Source: Myxococcus hansupus (GTDB lineage Bacteria; Myxococcota; Myxococcia; Myxococcales; Myxococcaceae). From it: DNA of 64,000 nt. Location of the stretch: contig NZ_CP012109.1 of assembly GCF_000280925.3 (NCBI RefSeq), forward strand, positions 3,678,501 to 3,742,500. The letters run 5' to 3'. Of the stretch, positions 5,794 to 54,892 are shown piece by piece. The first letter of the stretch is position 1. Each line of letters begins with the position of its first letter. A program made the position numbers and the translations under genes. The notes below the pieces were generated by a model. That model did no database searches, was not told where the DNA came from, and was given only the letters and a program-made list of their open reading frames with translations.

Positions 5794-6687
5794 ATGCGAA
5801 TTCTTCCCTGGCTGTTCCTGACGTTGCTGACGGGGTGTGCTTCCACGCTGTCCACGCAGCAGACGGCTCGAACGCTGGCGCCCGGCCAGGTCCAGGTGAC
5901 GGGCGGCGTGGGGGCCTTCGTCCCGGTCGGCACCATCGTCCGGGTGGTGGAGGAGGGGCGGGAGCAAAGCCGGGAGGCCTGGGACGCCATCGTGAATGAC
6001 CGGCCGTACGCGCTGGGCGAAGAGGCGCAGCAGCGGATTCTCACCGCGGGCGTGGCGCTGATGGCGTCCCCGCCGGGCGTCAACCCGGAGCTGATGCTCC
6101 GCGTGGGCGTGCTGGACGGGCTGGACGTGGGCGTGCGCTACAGCGGCATCTCCCTGCGCGGGGACCTCAAGGTGCGGCTCGCCCACGGCGGAGACACGGT
6201 GGGCCGGTACCTGGAGCCGGGCCAGCGCTCGTTCGACCTGGCGATGGGGGTCGGCGTGTCCCGGCACTTCTTCAGCAGCCCGGTCCTGGACGTGCTGGAG
6301 GTGGTGGAGATGAACGACTTCGGGCGCTACGACATCGAGGTGCCCGTCTACCTGAGCGCGGACTGGGGGGACATCTTCAAGCTCTACGCGGCGCCCAAGT
6401 ACATCTACAGCCGCACCCGGATGGACGCGCGGCTGGTGAACTACGCGGAGCAGGGCAAGCCGGTGACGGGCTTCGACGCATCGCTTCCCGCGACGGTGGG
6501 CAGCCACTTCGTCGGATCCACCCTGGGCATCGCGGTGGGTTACCGGTACGTCCACCTCTTCGCCGAGGTGACGGCCGGCTACTTCCGGACGCGGCCACGG
6601 CTCTTCGGAATGGAGCGGGACCTGGGGGGCGTTGCGGTGATGCCCAGCGTGGGGTTGGCCATCCGGGGCGGCGGCTCGGACCGGTAG
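5794..6687 (+). CDS. Outer-membrane lipoprotein, probable beta-barrel
   Basis: 297 residues with a lipoprotein signal (MRILPWLFLTLLTGC, Cys15). The mature part has many alternating-residue strands with aromatic girdles (VGVRYSGISLRGDLKVRL, IAVGYRYVHLFAEVTAGYF), which suggests a small outer-membrane barrel or a barrel-like lipoprotein. No family motif is recognised. It reads away from truD with about 70 bases between the two starts. A hairpin follows its stop at 6695-6729. Confidence 0.7.
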   Translation: MRILPWLFLTLLTGCASTLSTQQTARTLAPGQVQVTGGVGAFVPVGTIVRVVEEGREQSREAWDAIVNDRPYALGEEAQQRILTAGVALMASPPGVNPELMLRVGVLDGLDVGVRYSGISLRGDLKVRLAHGGDTVGRYLEPGQRSFDLAMGVGVSRHFFSSPVLDVLEVVEMNDFGRYDIEVPVYLSADWGDIFKLYAAPKYIYSRTRMDARLVNYAEQGKPVTGFDASLPATVGSHFVGSTLGIAVGYRYVHLFAEVTAGYFRTRPRLFGMERDLGGVAVMPSVGLAIRGGGSDR

Positions 6688-6694
6688 GTGCCAG

Positions 6695-6729
6695 CCAGGC
6701 AGGCGTCCAGCTTCCTGGATGCTGCCTGG
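6695..6729 (+). terminator. Hairpin after the outer-membrane lipoprotein gene
   Basis: CCAGGCAG (6695-6702) pairs with CTGCCTGG (6722-6729), and an inner TCCAG/CTGGA stem closes on a CTTC loop. The stop codon is 8 bases upstream. There is no long T run (GTGTTC follows), as is common in GC-rich genomes. Confidence 0.5.
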
Positions 6730-6805
6730 GTGTTCAGTGGTGATTTCCGAGCGTTCCCCGGTGACGATGCGCTCTGGTAGTGTCCGGGCCGGTGAGGATT
6801 TCCGC

Positions 6806-8470
6806 GTGAGCCAGTCCCCCGCCCCATTTGCACCCAAACCCGGGCAGATTCGCGGCCCCCGTCTGACAGGGCGCTTCGCGGACGGCACGCTCGGAGAGTT
6901 TCCATTGGGACCGGCGACGTCCCTGGGCCGGCATCCGTCCAACACGCTGCGGCTGGTGGACCGGGAGGTCTCCAAGGAACACGCCGTCATCGAGCGCGTG
7001 GGCAAGGAGTTCGTCCTCAAGGACCTGGGCTCGTCCAACGGCACCTTCGTGAATGGCCGCCGGGTGAAGGAGCTCAAGCTGCGCGACGGGGATGAAATCT
7101 CCCTGGGCGCCTCGCGGCTCATCTTCCACAGCGGCGAGCCGCCAGCGGCCTCCAACGCGCCCACCGCGCCGGGCGTGACGGTGGTGGCGCAGTCCATCTC
7201 CATGCCGGCCTTCCTGGCGCAGATGGATCAGGTGCCGCAGAACTTCCGGCCCGCCGAGCAGGTGTCCGACGTGGAGGCCCTGCGCCGCGACTACGAGAAG
7301 CTGCGCATCGCCCACGAGTTCCACCGGCAGGTGAGCCTGCAGGGCAGCCAGACGGACCTCTTCGAGCAGATCCTCAAGGTGGCCTTCCAGCTTTTGGCCG
7401 CCGACCACGGCGTCATCCTGAAGGTGGCCGCGGATGGGGAGTTCATCCCGTCGGCGGTGCACCACCGCTCCGACAAGGCCGTCAACGTCATGCTGTCCGA
7501 CACTGTGCTCAAGCGCGTGGTGGAGACGGGCAAGGCGGTGCTGACGGCGGACGCCATCATCGACGAGCGCTTCTCCGCCGCGGAGAGCATCGTCGCGCAG
7601 GGCATCCGGTCCGCCATGGCGGTGCCGCTGAAGGTGAACGGGAAGATCCAGGCGGTGCTCTTCCTGGACAGCCGTCAGCAGATCAACGCCTTCTCGGAGA
7701 AGGACCTGACCATCCTCTCCGGCATCGCCTCCCAGGCGAGCATCGCGCTGGAGAACGCCGCGCTGGCCGAGCAGATTCGCGCCGAGGCGGTGACGCGCGC
7801 GGAGCTGAGCCGCTTCCTGTCCAAGGCCGTCGCCGACGCGGTGATTGCCGGCGAGACGGAAGATCTGGCACAGAGCCGTCTGGCGGAGGTGAGCTGCCTG
7901 TTCGCCGACATCCGCGGGTTCACCACCATCTCGGAGAACGACTCTCCGCAAGAGGTGGTGGCCATGCTCAACGCTTTCTTCACCGCGATGGCCGGCGTGG
8001 TGTTCAGACACGAGGGGAATCTGGACAAGTTCATTGGGGACTGTGTCATGGCCGTCTGGGGGCCGCCGCTGTCACACCCGGACGACGCCGCCCGCGCGCT
8101 TCGCGCCGCCTTGGAGATGCAGGACGCCGTTCATGAGCTGAACCGCAAGCGCGTGGCCGAAGGGAAGGCGCCCATCGAGGTGGGCATCGGCGTGAACACC
8201 GGTCAGGCGGTTGTCGGCTACATGGGCAGCGCGGAGCGCCACGAGTTCACGGCCATTGGCGACACGGTGAACACCGCCTCGCGCCTGTGTGGCATGGCGA
8301 AGAGCGGCGAGGTGCTGGCCTCGGATACGACGGTGCGCCGGGCGGGCGCCGGCTTCGACGTGGAGGGGTTGCCGGCCCTCCAGGTGAAGGGCAAGGAGAA
8401 GGCCGTGCCCACCTACCGCGTCCATGGCCTGGAATACACCACGGCCGCTTCCTCCTCGCGCCGCGTATGA
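6806..8470 (+). CDS. FHA-GAF class III adenylate cyclase
   Basis: 554 residues from GTG 6806, chosen because GGTGAGGA lies 8 bases upstream; the open frame starts at 6719. An FHA phosphothreonine-binding domain has GRH at 41-43, SKEH at 56-59 and GSSNGTFVNG at 75-84. A GAF domain follows at about 185-335, then a class III nucleotide cyclase at about 365-540. The metal-binding aspartates are present (FADIRGFT and FIGDCVMAVWG). The Lys in NLDKFIGD and Thr in EFTAIGD match the adenine-selecting pair, so the product should be cAMP. No membrane segment is seen, so it is cytoplasmic. Its stop overlaps the start of the adjacent Ser/Thr kinase by 4 bases, and the FHA domain is an obvious candidate to bind a phosphothreonine made by that kinase. 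Confidence 0.9.
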   Translation: MSQSPAPFAPKPGQIRGPRLTGRFADGTLGEFPLGPATSLGRHPSNTLRLVDREVSKEHAVIERVGKEFVLKDLGSSNGTFVNGRRVKELKLRDGDEISLGASRLIFHSGEPPAASNAPTAPGVTVVAQSISMPAFLAQMDQVPQNFRPAEQVSDVEALRRDYEKLRIAHEFHRQVSLQGSQTDLFEQILKVAFQLLAADHGVILKVAADGEFIPSAVHHRSDKAVNVMLSDTVLKRVVETGKAVLTADAIIDERFSAAESIVAQGIRSAMAVPLKVNGKIQAVLFLDSRQQINAFSEKDLTILSGIASQASIALENAALAEQIRAEAVTRAELSRFLSKAVADAVIAGETEDLAQSRLAEVSCLFADIRGFTTISENDSPQEVVAMLNAFFTAMAGVVFRHEGNLDKFIGDCVMAVWGPPLSHPDDAARALRAALEMQDAVHELNRKRVAEGKAPIEVGIGVNTGQAVVGYMGSAERHEFTAIGDTVNTASRLCGMAKSGEVLASDTTVRRAGAGFDVEGLPALQVKGKEKAVPTYRVHGLEYTTAASSSRRV

Positions 8471-48915: not shown

Positions 48916-49926
48916 TCAGTCCTTCCAGAGCACCTTCCACGGGTGTTTGCGGAGGTCCGTCACCAGCGAACGCAGCTCATCGTAGAGCGTGCCATCCTGA
49001 AGGGCCGCGCCCACGCTGCCCTCGCCGGCTTCAATCTTCGCCAGCACCCGGTCCGCCCGGGAGGCGATGCTCTCCAACTGCCCCGAAGCCGCCGTGAGGC
49101 GCTCCAGGGCGACCTTCACGCGCTCGCCGTCTTCCGGCCCCAGCGGGCCCGTGATGGCCGCCAGACCGTCCAGCGTCGTCCCCGCGGACTTCGTCAGCCC
49201 CGGCAAATCCCGCCGCACCACCGAGGCCACCGCCGACGCGTCGTCGAGCATCCGCGCGCCCTTGCCGCCGGGTTGGAAGGCTTCCCGCGCGAGCCCCGAG
49301 AGCTGCCGCAGGTCCTTCGACGCGGCCGCCAGCTCCGTGGCCAGCACCTTCAGGTCGCCCTGGTTCTCCTGAAGCAACTGGTCCAGGGTCCGCGCCAGCC
49401 GCGACACATTCGCGGCGAGGCCACGGATGGCCTCGGGGTCCTCCTCGAGCATCTGCGACAGCAGGTCCACGAAGCGCGTGAGCTGCTCCGCGAGCACGTC
49501 CAGCCGGGGCGCGTCCGTCCCCCGCACGGAGGTCCCGGCGGGCAGCCGCTCCTGCGCCGAGCCCGGGTTCAGCTCCAGGTACGGCTCGCCCAGGATGCCC
49601 ACCGTGGCCACGGTGACGCGCGCGTCCTTGCGCAGCGAACCCACGGCCTCGGGTGACACCGCGAGCTCCATCCGGACGGGCAGGGGACGGCCCTGTGCAT
49701 CCCGCCGTTCGGGCTGGAGCTGGATGTCCTTCACGCGCCCCACCTGCACGCCGCCCAGCTTCACCGGGGCGCCCTCCACCACGTTGCCCGTGTGGCCGAA
49801 GTCCACCGCGAGCCCCGTCTCCGAGCCCAGGTTCAATTCGCCCATCAGGAACAACAGCACCAGCACGCTCACGATGGCGGCCAGCACCAGCGCGCCCACC
49901 TTCAGCTCCAGCCGTCGCTCATCCAT
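48916..49926 (-). CDS. MlaD/MCE-family substrate-binding protein
   Basis: 336 residues. One N-terminal membrane anchor (VGALVLAAIVSVLVLLFLMG), then an MCE domain at about 35-115 (VDFGHTGNVVEGAPVKLGGV, VGRVKDIQL, VATVGILGEPYLELNPG), then a long helical tail to the end (many Leu heptads, for example LARTLDQLLQENQGDLKVLA). MCE proteins form hexameric rings or tunnels that carry lipids across the periplasm; the long helices could form a needle. Last of five overlapping genes; its start overlaps the preceding ATPase by 8 bases. Confidence 0.92.
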   Translation of the reverse strand: MDERRLELKVGALVLAAIVSVLVLLFLMGELNLGSETGLAVDFGHTGNVVEGAPVKLGGVQVGRVKDIQLQPERRDAQGRPLPVRMELAVSPEAVGSLRKDARVTVATVGILGEPYLELNPGSAQERLPAGTSVRGTDAPRLDVLAEQLTRFVDLLSQMLEEDPEAIRGLAANVSRLARTLDQLLQENQGDLKVLATELAAASKDLRQLSGLAREAFQPGGKGARMLDDASAVASVVRRDLPGLTKSAGTTLDGLAAITGPLGPEDGERVKVALERLTAASGQLESIASRADRVLAKIEAGEGSVGAALQDGTLYDELRSLVTDLRKHPWKVLWKD

Positions 49927-50695
49927 CCGTCGCGCCCTCCATGAATGGCGCCGTCAGCACCCGCAGCTCGGGCGCGGAGGACTCCAGGAAGCCTTCCGGA
50001 GTCCCCAGATAGGCACATCGCTTGTTCGCCACCACCAACACCCGATCCGCCAACGCCTTCAACTGCCGGTAGTCGTGGGACACCACCATGCCCCCCAGGC
50101 CCCGTGCCTTCAACGACGCGAGGACCTCCTCCACCTGGCTGGCGCCCCGGCGGTCCAACCCCGTGGTCGGCTCGTCGAACAGGAGATAGCGCGGGTTGAG
50201 CACCAGCGCTCGCGCGATGGCGGTCCGCTTCTTCGCTCCGGGCCCCAGCTCAGGTGGCAGCCGGTCCGCCCAGTCCAACAGGCCGACCTGCTCCAGCGCG
50301 GCGTCCACCGCGTCCTGGGGCGCGTTCGGATCCGCCAGCCGCACGTTCTCCCTCAGCGTGCGCCAGTCCAGCAGCGCGGGGCCCTGGACCAGATAGGGGG
50401 CCTGTCGGCGCAGCCGCACCAGCTCCCGTTCGGGCCGTGAGTCCACGCGTTCACCCCACAGCTCGATTTCACCCGCGTCGGGATGCAGCAGGCCCACGGC
50501 CAGGCGGCACAGCACGCTCTTCCCGGTGCCGCTGGCGCCCGCGATGAACGTCAGCTCCTTCGTGGACACGTCCGCCGTCAGTCCCTCCAGCACGCGCCGC
50601 CGGCCCTGTTCGAACGCGACGTGGACGTCCCTGAATCGCAGGGCCTCGCTGTCGGGCAGGGGCAGGGGAGATGGCATGCGCGGCGTCCCGTTCAC
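49919..50695 (-). CDS. MCE transporter ATPase 2 (canonical Walker B, degenerate signature)
   Basis: 258 residues from GTG 50695, overlapping the permease stop (GTGA); ATG 50677 is an alternative. Walker A GASGTGKS, Walker B YLLFDEPTTGLD with the catalytic Glu, and the switch His (VVSHDYRQL) are all normal. The signature motif, LSGGx in most ABC proteins, reads LGPGAKK (checked in DNA at 50230-50260): Ser is Gly and Gly is Pro. It should therefore bind ATP in its own site but offer a poor signature to its partner. MlaF-type ATPases energise lipid transport. Confidence 0.9.
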   Translation of the reverse strand: MNGTPRMPSPLPLPDSEALRFRDVHVAFEQGRRRVLEGLTADVSTKELTFIAGASGTGKSVLCRLAVGLLHPDAGEIELWGERVDSRPERELVRLRRQAPYLVQGPALLDWRTLRENVRLADPNAPQDAVDAALEQVGLLDWADRLPPELGPGAKKRTAIARALVLNPRYLLFDEPTTGLDRRGASQVEEVLASLKARGLGGMVVSHDYRQLKALADRVLVVANKRCAYLGTPEGFLESSAPELRVLTAPFMEGATDG

Positions 50696-51435
50696 AAGCG
50701 CAGGAGCTGGAAGGCGAGGGACACGGCGAGGTCGATGAGCAGGCACCCCAGGCTCGCGGCCACCACGCCGTCGGTGGTCGCTTCACCCACGGCCTCGGCG
50801 CCGCCGCGTGCCTTGAGTCCCGCCACCGCCGCGGCCAGGGGAATGTAGATGCCGCAGGCCGCGGCCTTCAGGAAGGCGCCCAGCACGTCCCAGCCGTCGA
50901 CATAGCGCGGGTCCATGAACGCTCGCCCATCCACGCCGAAGGCGAACTGCGCCACCGCCGCTGCGGACAGCGTCGCCGCGACGGTGCCCAGCGTGCACAG
51001 CAACGGGACGCCCACTGCGCCCGCGATGACCCGCGGCGCCACCAGGTCCGCATACGGGTCGCCCGCGGACATCTCCAGGGCCTCCACCTGTTCGTTGACG
51101 CTCATGGTGGACAGCTCCGCCGCGTGCGCCGCGCCCGCGCGCGAGGCGGTGAGCAGCGCCGAGACGGCCGGGCCCAGCTCGCGGATGAGCAGCTCGAAGT
51201 ACGCGGGGCCCAGCACCGCCACATTGCCCACGAAGCGCCGCGCCTGGCTGTTGGCGATGGTGACCAGCACCGCGCCGAAGAAGGCCATGCCCGACATGAC
51301 CAGCCACACGCTGCGCCCGCCCAGCTCGTGGACCTGCGCCAGGGACTCGCGCCAGGGCACGCCGTCCCGCGCCGACGCCCGCACCGTGCGGGCCAGCAGC
51401 ACCACGGGCGCGCCGAAGAAGCCGAGCACGCTCAT
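50692..51435 (-). CDS. MlaE-type permease 2
   Basis: 247 residues from ATG 51435, which overlaps the stop of permease 1 by 4 bases. Five to six hydrophobic segments, with the MlaE core AYFELLIRELGPAVSALLTAS and RAGAAHAAELSTMSVNEQVEAL (the coupling-helix region that contacts the ATPase). It shares the family pattern with permease 1 but differs clearly in sequence, so the two probably form a heterodimer in the inner membrane. Confidence 0.92.
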   Translation of the reverse strand: MSVLGFFGAPVVLLARTVRASARDGVPWRESLAQVHELGGRSVWLVMSGMAFFGAVLVTIANSQARRFVGNVAVLGPAYFELLIRELGPAVSALLTASRAGAAHAAELSTMSVNEQVEALEMSAGDPYADLVAPRVIAGAVGVPLLCTLGTVAATLSAAAVAQFAFGVDGRAFMDPRYVDGWDVLGAFLKAAACGIYIPLAAAVAGLKARGGAEAVGEATTDGVVAASLGCLLIDLAVSLAFQLLRL

Positions 51436-52205
51436 CCCATCCACCCCGCGAGCACCGCCGTGAGCACGAAGTCGAGGATGAAGATGGCCGCGCAGCCCTG
51501 CACCACCGCGCTCGCCGCCGCCTGTCCCACGGCCTGCGCGCCGCCCCGGGCGGAGAGCCCCACCGTGGTGGACAGCAGCGAGATGGCCAGCCCGAAGGTG
51601 CCCGTCTTCACCACGCCGCCCAGGACATCCCACGGGCCCAGCAGTTGGGAGAACGTGCCGAAGAACACACGGAGGGGCAGGCCCAGCGTGAGGAGGGCGG
51701 CCACGGACTCGAAGAGGATGGCCACCAGGAAGGTGAAGGTGCTCAGCGCCAGCATGCTCACCTCCATGGCCACCACGCGGGGGGCGACGAGGATGGCGAA
51801 GGGGTCGAGCCCGATGCCGCGCAAGCCCTCGATTTGACCGCCCACCTGCATCAGCGCCAGCTCCGCCGCGTTCCGCGCGCCAATGCGGGCCGACATGATG
51901 AGCCCGAGCAGCAGCGGGCCGAACTCCCACAGGACGCCGTAACCCGCGGCCCAGCCGAGGAACGCCCGCGCGCCGAGACGCTGGACATAGATGCCCGACT
52001 GCAACACCACGATGATGCCCGCCAGCGCGGCCGTGGCCAGCGCCAGGGGCAGCGAGCCATAGCCGAACTGAACCAGCGCGCGGCCCAGCTCGCGGCGCTC
52101 CAGCTTCGGCAGCGCCAGGAATGTGCGGCCCACGACGAGCGCCAGCGCGCCCGTTCCTCGCACAGCGCCCAGGCCCTTGCGGCCCAGTGCCGTCAGCAGC
52201 GTCAT
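51432..52205 (-). CDS. MlaE-type permease 1
   Basis: 257 residues. MlaE core: GVLWEFGPLLLGLIMSARIG, RNAAELALMQVGGQIEGLRG and VVAMEVSMLALSTFTFLVAILF. About six membrane segments. It forms the inner-membrane part of the lipid transporter with permease 2. Its ATG overlaps the stop of ATPase 1 by 4 bases. Confidence 0.93.
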   Translation of the reverse strand: MTLLTALGRKGLGAVRGTGALALVVGRTFLALPKLERRELGRALVQFGYGSLPLALATAALAGIIVVLQSGIYVQRLGARAFLGWAAGYGVLWEFGPLLLGLIMSARIGARNAAELALMQVGGQIEGLRGIGLDPFAILVAPRVVAMEVSMLALSTFTFLVAILFESVAALLTLGLPLRVFFGTFSQLLGPWDVLGGVVKTGTFGLAISLLSTTVGLSARGGAQAVGQAAASAVVQGCAAIFILDFVLTAVLAGWMG

Positions 52206-52900
52206 GCGGGCACCTCGTCCGGTGCGTCCTCCAGCTCGGGGGCGGGTGGGCCGTCATGCACCAGGCGTCCGCCGCGAAAGAACAGCCACCGGGGCAGGGG
52301 CAGGTCGGCGGGGGCCTCCGTCGCCACGACGAGCAGCGTGCCGCCCTTGGAGACGTCCAGCAGCACCCGCGCCACCTGCCGCGCGGTGCCCGGGTCCAAC
52401 CCCGCGAAAGGGTCATCCGCGAGCACCACGGACGGCCGCGCCGCCAGGGCCCGTGCGATGCCCGCGCGCTTCTTCATGCCGCCCGACAGCCGCTCGGGCA
52501 GCGTGCCCGCCGCGTCCGCCAGTCCCACCGCGCGCAGCACCTCCACGGCGCGGGCCCGGGCTTCATCCTCGGCGACGTGCCGGCGGGTGAGGGGAAGCAT
52601 CACGTTCTCCAGCACCGTCATCGAGTCGAACAGGGCGTCCGTCTGGAACACCATGCCAAACGCGGCCTGACGCTCCCGGCGTTGCGCGGGGGAGAGCGCC
52701 GCCGCGTCCTGCGCATCCCACCGCACCGCGCCCGCCGTGGGCCGCACGAGCCCGGCCAGGGCCTTCACCCACGTCGTCTTCCCCGCGCCCGAGCGGCCTA
52801 GCACCAGCGCCTGGGTGCCCTCGGGCAGCGCGCACGTCACCTCGGACAGCACCTGCCGCGCTCCGTACCGCACCGTGAGGCCGTCCGTGCGCAGGTTCAT
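52202..52900 (-). CDS. MCE transporter ATPase 1 (canonical signature, degenerate catalytic site)
   Basis: 232 residues. Walker A GRSGAGKT and signature LSGGMKK are intact. Walker B reads VVLADDPFAGLD: the catalytic Glu is Asp (codons GAT GAC). The segment that normally carries the switch His reads LLVVATEAPADLP, without His. So its own ATP site looks hydrolysis-poor while its signature would complete the site of ATPase 2. First gene of the operon; the next four follow with 4-8-base overlaps. Confidence 0.92.
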   Translation of the reverse strand: MNLRTDGLTVRYGARQVLSEVTCALPEGTQALVLGRSGAGKTTWVKALAGLVRPTAGAVRWDAQDAAALSPAQRRERQAAFGMVFQTDALFDSMTVLENVMLPLTRRHVAEDEARARAVEVLRAVGLADAAGTLPERLSGGMKKRAGIARALAARPSVVLADDPFAGLDPGTARQVARVLLDVSKGGTLLVVATEAPADLPLPRWLFFRGGRLVHDGPPAPELEDAPDEVPA

Positions 52901-52927: not shown

Positions 52928-54892
52928 TCAGGGCTGCCAGCGCAAGAGCACGCCGGTGGAACCCGCGGCCCAGATGTCCGTCGGGCCGGTGGCGCCCAGC
53001 GTGTGCGTCGTGTGGCTCGGGGGGGCGCTCGAGCTCCACGTCTCTCCGTTGAAGAAGTGGATGGCGTTGCTGCCCGAGCTCACGGCGTAGATCGCCTTGC
53101 TGCCGAAGGCCACCATCGCGCGGATGTCCGCGGTGGCCATGGATTCCAAGGTGAGTCGCGGCTTCACGGTCCAGGTCGTCCCGTTCAACTCCATCAGCAG
53201 GCCGGTGTCGCCCGCGGCGACGACGCGCGTCGCGGAGAGCGCCCGGATGCTACGCAGGAAGCCCCCCGAGGGGAGGGTCCCCAGGTTTTCATGGGTCCAC
53301 GTGCTCCCCCCATCCGCGGGGCCGCGCCAGACCACCGGACGGCTGGAGCCACCCACCACCTCGGTCCCCGCGGCGAACAGCGTCCCCGGCGTCGTGCCGT
53401 CAATGGCGCGCAGGTTGCTGACGACCTGCTGAAGGAGCACGGGGGCCGCCTGCGTCGGCGCACCCTCCACGTGGGTCCACCGGATGATGCGGCCCTCGCT
53501 GTCCACCGCGTAGAGCGTCACGGTGTTGCCGTTCTCGAAGCCCACGATGCCGTTGATCTGCGCGGCTCCCGGGCCGGCGACGTCGACGCACGGTGCGGTG
53601 TCGGTGGCCCGGCGGGTGGTGAAGGTGCCCGCGCTCGAGCCCAGGAACACGCGGCCGTCGTTCGTGGTCCACGCGGACCTCCAAATGCCAGGGCAACCCG
53701 TCACCAGCGTCACGGTGTTCCCGTCGACGTGGGCGAGCCGACTGGCGTCACCCGCGAGCCAACCCCTGTTCCCACTGTACGGCGCCACCGCGCGCCACTG
53801 CGTGTCGTTGGGAGAGTCGCTGTTGGACGTCCAGGCCGCCGGATCGCAGGACGCGATGTGCTCATCCACCTGGCCATCACAGTCGTTGTCCATCCGGTCG
53901 CACACCTCGGTGGCGCCGTTGAACACGTAGCGCGAGCTCTCGTCGCAATCCGTCCGCTCCGTCACCGCGTTCTCGCCCGGCGGATTCGCGCACCACAGGC
54001 CCACGGAGGTGCCGGCCCGTCCGTCACCGTCCTCGTCGATGAACCACTCCACGGGCTGCTCGGCGCTGCTGCACACCGCCGCCAACTGGTCCGGGGTGCA
54101 CTGCCTGGTGCCGCCGCAGTTCTGCGCCGTCATGCACGCGGTGCCCACGTCGAACGGCGCGTTGTCCACCTGGCCGTCGCAGTTGTCATCCCTGTTATCG
54201 CACCGGAGCTCGAGGGGCTGGGGGAACACGTTCGGGTCCCGGTCGTTGCAGTCTCCGGACTCCAGGACGTAACCCTCGGGCGGGATGCAGGAGAGGCTGG
54301 GCAGGGCGAACGGGTCGCCAAAGCCGTCTCCGTCCACGTCGCGGTAGTACGTCGCGCCGCCCGGGGCGTCCGCCTCGCCATTGACGCAGTTGTTGTCCAC
54401 GCCGTCGCAGAGCTCCGTCGCGCCAGGATGGATGTCGGGGTTGGTGTCGTCGCAGTCCGAGCCCGGGTACTGCCCCTCGGCGGAGACGTAGCCGTCATCG
54501 TCCAGGTCGTCGGCGCGCAGGGCCAGCATGACGTCCGTGGTGCCCACCTCCGGCACCTGGGCCGTCACTTCTTGCAGCGCGACCAGCGGGCCATTGCAGG
54601 AGCGCTCATGAGCGGAGGCGACCAACCGGAGGTTCCGGCTCCAGCCCTCGCGGCCGATGATGGCCACCGTCCGGATGTCGCTGCGGGCGTTGGGATCCAC
54701 CCGGACGTCGGTGGATTCGGTGCGGGTCGGGTCGGCCACGTCGGTGATGGACAGCGTGAGGCAGGCCGGACGAAACGTCGCATACGAGACGAGTGCGCGG
54801 ATCGCACCCGCTTGAGGTGGAGTCTCCTCCTTCTTGCAGCCGGAAACGGAGGCCATCACCACAAGAACCCACGCCATCAGGAATAAACGCAT
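52928..54892 (-). CDS. MopE-like metal-binding lipoprotein with propeller-like C-terminus
   Basis: 654 residues with a lipoprotein signal (LMAWVLVVMASVSGC, Cys19). Three MopE/Stig-type metal-binding repeats occupy about 140-340: DCDDTNPDIHPGATELCDGV, DCNDRDPNVFPQPLELRCDN and DCDESSRYVFNGATEVCDRM, each with a DGDGD/DGxD-type acidic loop. The C-terminal 300 residues show about six repeats with WRSAWTTNDGRVFLGSS, LFAAGTEVVGG and DIWAAGSTGVLLRW, typical of a beta-propeller. Displayed on the envelope; Ca2+ or Cu binding is inferred from the repeats. Divergent from the RND efflux operon. Confidence 0.85.
   Translation of the reverse strand: MRLFLMAWVLVVMASVSGCKKEETPPQAGAIRALVSYATFRPACLTLSITDVADPTRTESTDVRVDPNARSDIRTVAIIGREGWSRNLRLVASAHERSCNGPLVALQEVTAQVPEVGTTDVMLALRADDLDDDGYVSAEGQYPGSDCDDTNPDIHPGATELCDGVDNNCVNGEADAPGGATYYRDVDGDGFGDPFALPSLSCIPPEGYVLESGDCNDRDPNVFPQPLELRCDNRDDNCDGQVDNAPFDVGTACMTAQNCGGTRQCTPDQLAAVCSSAEQPVEWFIDEDGDGRAGTSVGLWCANPPGENAVTERTDCDESSRYVFNGATEVCDRMDNDCDGQVDEHIASCDPAAWTSNSDSPNDTQWRAVAPYSGNRGWLAGDASRLAHVDGNTVTLVTGCPGIWRSAWTTNDGRVFLGSSAGTFTTRRATDTAPCVDVAGPGAAQINGIVGFENGNTVTLYAVDSEGRIIRWTHVEGAPTQAAPVLLQQVVSNLRAIDGTTPGTLFAAGTEVVGGSSRPVVWRGPADGGSTWTHENLGTLPSGGFLRSIRALSATRVVAAGDTGLLMELNGTTWTVKPRLTLESMATADIRAMVAFGSKAIYAVSSGSNAIHFFNGETWSSSAPPSHTTHTLGATGPTDIWAAGSTGVLLRWQP

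Follow-up and report, generated by a model that had tools for sequence, protein, structure and literature searches.

A predicted asymmetric MCE transporter with two different ATPases and one degenerate ATP site in Myxococcus hansupus and other Myxococcota

The stretch of DNA analyzed here, hereafter the window, comprises 64,000 nucleotides of the genome of Myxococcus hansupus (NZ_CP012109.1, positions 3,678,501 to 3,742,500), a single contig of 9,490,432 bases. On its minus strand, reading from 52900 down to 48916, the open reading frames (ORFs) include five consecutive genes that encode an ABC ATPase (A1), two MlaE-family permeases (P1 and P2), a second ATPase (A2) and an MlaD-type protein (D) (Table 1). 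The A1/P1 and P1/P2 overlaps are 4 bases each and the A2/D overlap is 8 bases, and the P2/A2 junction is a 4-base overlap with the GTG start of A2 or a 14-base gap with the alternative ATG. Both permeases score far above the PF02405 cut-off of 22.5 bits (171 bits for P1 and 158 bits for P2), and the solved chains that they match are solely MlaE-type permeases and the YrbE1 pair. The D protein matches PF02470 with 56.8 bits (cut-off 25.1) over residues 40-122, followed by some 200 C-terminal residues that end in a conserved PWK. Both ATPases fall below the NCBIfam cut-off of 441 bits for MlaF (117.6 and 103.9 bits).

Table 1. Genes of the five-gene operon and their positions in the window
Gene	Product	Position	Strand	Pfam family	Remarks
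A1	ATPase	52202..52900	minus	ABC_tran	
P1	MlaE-family permease	51432..52205	minus	MlaE	
P2	MlaE-family permease	50692..51435	minus	MlaE	
A2	ATPase	49919..50695	minus	ABC_tran	GTG start 50695, alternative ATG 50677
D	MlaD-type protein	48916..49926	minus	MlaD	Single MCE domain

The two ATPases differ in the motifs that they retain. In A1, Walker A (GRSGAGKTT) and the signature (LSGGM) are intact, the catalytic Glu of Walker B is replaced by Asp (LADDP), and the switch His is missing (VVATEAP). In A2, Walker A (GASGTGKSV), the Walker B Glu (LFDEP) and the switch His (VVSHDY) are intact and the signature is broken (LGPGA). E. coli MlaF and a canonical MlaF of the window genome both have LSGGM, DEP and SHD or THD, and among MCE ATPases of the Mla- and TGD-like kinds, LSGGM is described as well conserved (PMC7367683; here and below, papers are cited for those parts of their text that were available). 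The predicted monomers of A1 and A2 are both confident (mean predicted local distance difference test score 90.5); a helix after the switch region is present in the A2 model and missing from that of A1. Among solved structures, the fold of the A2 model matches MlaF chains best, closely followed by MceG and other ABC subunits, and alignment with E. coli MlaF shows that both A1 and A2 lack the MlaF-type C-terminal extension.

Under the standard geometry of ABC composite sites (PMC7756269), the defects of both subunits would fall in one and the same site, the one that combines the Walker motifs of A1 with the signature of A2, and the other site would be complete. The same pattern has been described for TAP, in which Glu-to-Asp replacement and loss of the switch His in one subunit and a broken signature in the other all affect one site (PMC5277011); according to a review, every human degenerate site has a changed signature, and Glu-to-Asp ranks next in frequency (PMC7756269). 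An earlier note on this DNA, made from the letters alone, had described five genes overlapping by 4-8 bases, the motif defects of both ATPases and their TAP-like co-location in one site; each of these observations is borne out, with the proviso that the P2/A2 overlap holds only with the GTG start. We propose that the operon very probably encodes a single asymmetric MCE ABC transporter, in which A1:A2 would be mounted on P1:P2 and one of the two ATP sites would work, the other being degenerate.

The strongest evidence comes from the recurrence of the complementary defects. A count of ATPases sorted by motif is partly circular; hence, we recounted them by gene position alone, taking same-strand ATPases within 3 kb, either upstream of P1 or downstream of P2, which yielded 71 genomes with an upstream ATPase, 71 with a downstream one and 62 with both. 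The upstream ATPase retains SGG and the Walker A GK[ST] in 71/71 genomes and has lost the Glu and/or the His in 70/71; the downstream ATPase has a broken signature in 71/71, retains the Glu in 71/71 and has the His in all 70 readable sequences (one being cut). Among the genomes with both linked ATPases, the signature is intact upstream and broken downstream in 62/62, and the Glu and/or the His is lost upstream in 61/62, the exception being genome G164; such a split by position is more than chance would give. The suggestion in the earlier note that the substitutions are tied together stands for the A2 signature, which is broken in all 71 genomes, and does not stand as a fixed pair of changes in A1, which has lost the Glu only, the His only, both or, in G164, neither.

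Sorting by motif gave a compatible picture. Of 257 ATPase rows, three incomplete ones (L057_3361, L048_5 and L234_2) were dropped, and loci L207-L214 and L282-L300 are left out of the motif table. The 254 complete rows comprise 87 in which all three places are intact, 86 in which the signature is broken and the Glu and His remain, and 81 in which the signature is kept and the Glu and/or His is lost; no row combines both kinds of defect. Some genomes supply two rows, and the respective numbers of distinct sequences in these three classes are 79, 81 and 79. The intact rows, which serve as an internal control, consist of canonical MlaF together with the A1 of G164 (L126) and some ABC ATPases of other kinds. 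One signature-broken row, L062 (LSHGM), is not A2: its gene and that of a canonical permease, about 1 kb away, are on opposite strands; one of the catalytic-broken rows is an orphan gene (L253) of G123. Both ATPase kinds are present in 76 genomes by this sorting, or in 77 with G101. A1 only was detected in G098, G102 and G148, where contigs end nearby, and in G123 (the orphan); A2 only was detected in G096 (stretch too short), G101 (later completed), G137 (contig begins nearby), G159 (a fragment) and G191. In the 76 paired genomes, the A2 letters at the SGG position are GPG in 62, SAG in six, GAG in three and SSG, SPA, GKG, GHG and GQG in one each. The corresponding Glu/His letters of A1 are most often D/P (43), followed by D/T (9), E/A, D/A and E/N (4 each), D/S (3), D/H, G/H and D/N (2 each), and D/G, E/T and E/H (1 each). 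An A2 profile was also tried as a discriminator, but A2 and canonical MlaF cannot be told apart by its score, so that position, motif and tree were used instead.

In a quick ATPase tree made after blanking the motif columns, A2 forms one side of a branch (97 in the Shimodaira-Hasegawa-like approximate likelihood ratio test, SH-aLRT) and groups with canonical MlaF, with the placement of A1 unsure; in the permease tree, P1 and P2 each form one side of a branch (96 and 100). The ATPase tree requires at the fewest one change of the signature, seven of the Glu and five of the His, counts that are approximate because 49 of its 114 inner branches are weak. In our reading, the two permeases and the two ATPases would have diverged early, with a single signature loss in A2 next and repeated loss of catalytic residues in A1 thereafter. 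The orphan MlaF-like ATPase of G123 (L253; L292 5006-5821), a genome without the P1/P2 system, has LSGGM, DD and Pro in place of the switch His. It sits among canonical MlaF in the tree, which points to an independent A1-like change and should account for one Glu and one His change.

The genes of the system also tend to be present or absent together. Fifteen genomes of the same family without a P2-level match contain no A2 match at E <= 1e-38, and their P1 matches are of canonical level or missing. The A1 query found a match in 10 of the 20 genomes searched; six of these matches, from five of the fifteen genomes and from G159, are 39-41% identical and represent either canonical MlaF with MlaE and MlaD neighbors or the orphan L253. 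Against 10 relatives, the ratio of nonsynonymous to synonymous substitution rates (dN/dS) is 0.07-0.34 for A1, 0.08-0.36 for P1, 0.06-0.35 for P2, 0.09-0.34 for A2 and 0.11-0.43 for D; all five operon genes are under purifying selection.

A P2-type gene was detected in 95 of 195 Myxococcota genomes (P2 profile search, E <= 1e-50). The analysis of ATPases covered 81 of these 95 genomes, as well as G051, G159 and G197, which have parts of the system, and G123, which has only the orphan A1-like gene. A search of other Myxococcota for the same five-gene order had been proposed in the earlier note; in the stretches read, the order A1-P1-P2-A2-D, with small gaps allowed, is present in 48 genomes besides the window, reaching G164, which shares only its class with the window, and G168 and G170, which share only the phylum. 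Together with the recurrent complementary ATPases, this comparison supports the asymmetric MCE transporter that the note had envisaged. A contig scan gave eight loci (L207-L214), too few to bound the distribution: six (L207-L212) belong to records named Myxococcota or Deltaproteobacteria, and the five of these that were read each have an A2-type ATPase, the sixth, L208, being as long as a contig already represented by L127; the ATPase of L214 is degenerate, and L213 is a canonical locus. In the phylum of L214, 187 of 297 drawn genomes were above threshold; among the best 20 of these 187, whose loci were read (L225-L244), 18 have a complete neighboring ATPase intact at all three places, and in the remaining two the ATPase is cut (L234) or absent (L235).

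Additional information is provided by split operons. P1 has no ATPase next to it within the 3 kb read in G187, G189 and G193, and the contig begins close to P1 in G190, G194 and G050; in each of these six genomes, an A1-type ATPase without the switch His is encoded elsewhere (L147, L149, L162, L148, L146 and L152, respectively). In G033, G038 and G162, the P1-P2 pair has no ATPase in the stretch read and both kinds are encoded elsewhere (L158, L160 and L164; L176, L177 and L175), and an A2-type ATPase was found elsewhere in G031 and G051. These unlinked ATPases were recognized by profile score, similarity and motif and therefore weigh less than the position-based counts. The A1-P1 and P2-A2-D blocks are on two separate contigs in G197 and about 9 kb apart in G091, and A2-D lies beyond P2 by about 11 kb in G099 and about 2 kb in G101. 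These breakpoints hint that A1 goes with P1 and A2 with P2.

The two permeases also differ at the aligned coupling-helix region, where P1 has GGQIEGL in place of the TEQIDAL-like motif of its MlaE relatives and P2 has NEQVEAL. The conserved Glu of this motif is replaced by Gly in 64 of 83 P1 rows and kept in 79 of 87 P2 rows (some genomes supply two rows), and canonical permeases are mostly TEQIDAL-like. The assignment depends in part on where we take the coupling helix between transmembrane helices 2 and 3 to lie in the permease sequences. It further uses alignment with E. coli MlaE and the published placing of the helix between these two transmembrane helices (PMC7790496).

Several observations weigh against a single asymmetric transporter or the history proposed for it. 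The genomes are related, so that genome counts are not independent, and the genome searches scored a limited number of candidates per genome. Apart from the weak branches, which themselves belong here, the ATPase tree needs three label changes for A1 and does not support a single A1 origin. The A1 of G164 keeps both the Glu and the His; a His is found at the A1 switch position alongside DD in G093 and G051; the A1 proteins of G168 and G170 keep the His and have Gly for the Glu; and A1 keeps the Glu without the His in 9 of the 76 paired genomes. Genome G191, rated 100% complete, encodes P1-P2-A2-D (L134; A2 signature LGPGQ), with no A1-type ATPase among the 6 of its 13 other A1-profile matches that were read. 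Finally, in L214 (CP070697.1, a record named Desulfobacterales; 5821-8425), the sole ATPase of an MCE operon has lost the Walker A Lys, the signature and the switch His; being broken on both faces, it shows that such decay does occur elsewhere, and it is possibly a pseudo-ATPase that would need a partner from another locus.

These considerations bear on four alternative explanations. The first is that A1 with P1 and A2 with P2 make up two homodimeric transporters that are neighbors by chance, which would fit the separation of the A1-P1 and P2-A2-D blocks in genus g17 and in G197. However, both sites of an A2 homodimer would have a broken signature, both sites of an A1 homodimer would be without the Glu and/or the His in 70/71 genomes, retention or loss of the two blocks coincides in the 15 genomes tested, and one D gene accompanies both; we regard this explanation as very unlikely. 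Hardly more credible is a non-catalytic role of A1, as stabilizer or regulator, with a canonical MlaF from another operon as the working partner of A2. Intact canonical MlaF genes are indeed present in these genomes, and G191 has A2 without a detected A1 (with the sampling of matches given above); however, the motifs that A1 keeps in all 71 position-assigned genomes, Walker A and SGG, are exactly what A2 would need from a partner, A1-type genes are present even where unlinked, and no A2 or A1 orthologues were detected in those of the genomes searched that have canonical MlaF but no P2.

Least probable of all is that the substitutions are marks of decaying genes: the loss of catalytic residues in A1 and the fully degenerate ATPase of L214 are as decay would have it, but the dN/dS values of A1 and A2 are low, and A1 preserves its Walker A and signature across the genomes read. 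An A2 signature that is unusual yet working, with ATP hydrolyzed at both sites, is improbable, albeit the least so of the four, given that 75/76 paired genomes retain the final Gly of the motif, that Glu-to-Asp is a conservative change and that the A1 of G164 is catalytically intact. Against it, 68/76 paired genomes have Gly for the Ser of the A2 signature and 76/76 have another residue for the Gly that follows it, S146 of MlaF is described as taking part in ATP coordination (PMC7784689), and A1 has repeatedly lost the Glu and/or the His on the very site that the A2 signature break affects. At the level of sequence comparison, a strong case for the asymmetric transporter emerges from the position-based recurrence, the split operons and the inferred history of stepwise change.

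By analogy with ABC and MlaFEDB structures, such a transporter would consist of an A1:A2 heterodimer on a P1:P2 permease dimer with a D ring, A1 probably contacting P1 and A2 probably P2. Site I, made of the Walker A, Walker B and switch of A1 and the signature of A2, would be degenerate and hydrolyze little or no ATP; as the Walker A of A1 is intact, it may still hold ATP, and it might act as a hinge or regulator. Site II, made of the Walker A, Walker B and switch of A2 and the signature of A1, would be complete and do the hydrolysis. The D protein would form a hexameric periplasmic ring, perhaps drawn out into a tube by the residues past the MCE domain, and lipids would move between the inner and outer membranes. 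More tentatively, and with considerable doubt, A2/P2 might hydrolyze ATP and perform the movement, with A1/P1, whose ATP site would be degenerate and whose coupling helix lacks the conserved Glu, as an ATP-bound hinge, resulting in one-sided lipid handling under the MCE ring; this division of labor would have arisen from one signature loss and the subsequent repeated catalytic decay of the partner.

As for the genomic surroundings, a 654-residue protein with MopE-type metal-binding repeats is encoded 27 bases upstream of A1 (52928-54892, same strand), and the ORF downstream of the operon has no Pfam match. No MlaB was found among the operon genes, the rest of the genome not having been searched for it. 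Two MlaC homologues are encoded elsewhere in the window genome, so a soluble carrier might still take part. In the canonical Mla locus of this genome (L057 3041-4483, contig G000:C1, about 4.06 Mb), MlaE and MlaF are each split over two frames, and both are intact in a relative (L058). The M. hansupus assembly is based on PacBio data (PMC4765838), which makes an assembly error as likely as decay.

Compared with known systems, the operon shares the ABC_tran, MlaE and MlaD families with MlaFEDB of E. coli and P. aeruginosa, the A2 model being nearest to MlaF chains and A1 keeping LSGGM. In contrast to MlaFEDB, described as MlaF2E2D6B2 with MlaF and MlaE homodimers (PMC7790496, PMC7784689), it encodes two divergent ATPases and two divergent permeases in place of one MlaF and one MlaE, so that it is not an Mla system in the strict sense; further, it has no MlaB gene, neither A1 nor A2 has the MlaF-type C-terminal extension, and D is longer. 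Like Mce1 of mycobacteria, described with YrbE1A/YrbE1B as heterodimeric permeases and an MceG homodimer (PMC9882608), it combines two different MlaE-family permeases with an MCE protein; unlike Mce1, with its single MceG and six different MCE proteins, it has two ATPase genes and one MCE gene. The earlier view therefore needs an amendment: heteromeric MCE permeases are already known, and the new part is the two different ATPases. In the literature searched, the titles and abstract openings listed describe no MCE transporter with two different ATPases, most subscription papers and preprints lying outside that scope, and in the available descriptions every MCE transporter of solved structure is given an ATPase homodimer, also when its two permeases are not the same. 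If our interpretation is correct, a conserved degenerate site in the MCE fold would imply that asymmetric use of ATP can power MCE transport and would offer a bacterial system, apart from the exporters reviewed previously (PMC7756269), in which to ask what degenerate sites are for. The A1 lineages that keep the Glu only, the His only, both or neither would be a natural series for the order of degeneration. TAP has a transmembrane domain of another kind and another substrate than an MCE transporter. The parallel with TAP1/TAP2 and other degenerate-site ABC exporters, in which, as they are described, the same defects gather in one composite site, is a likeness of working, not of common membership.

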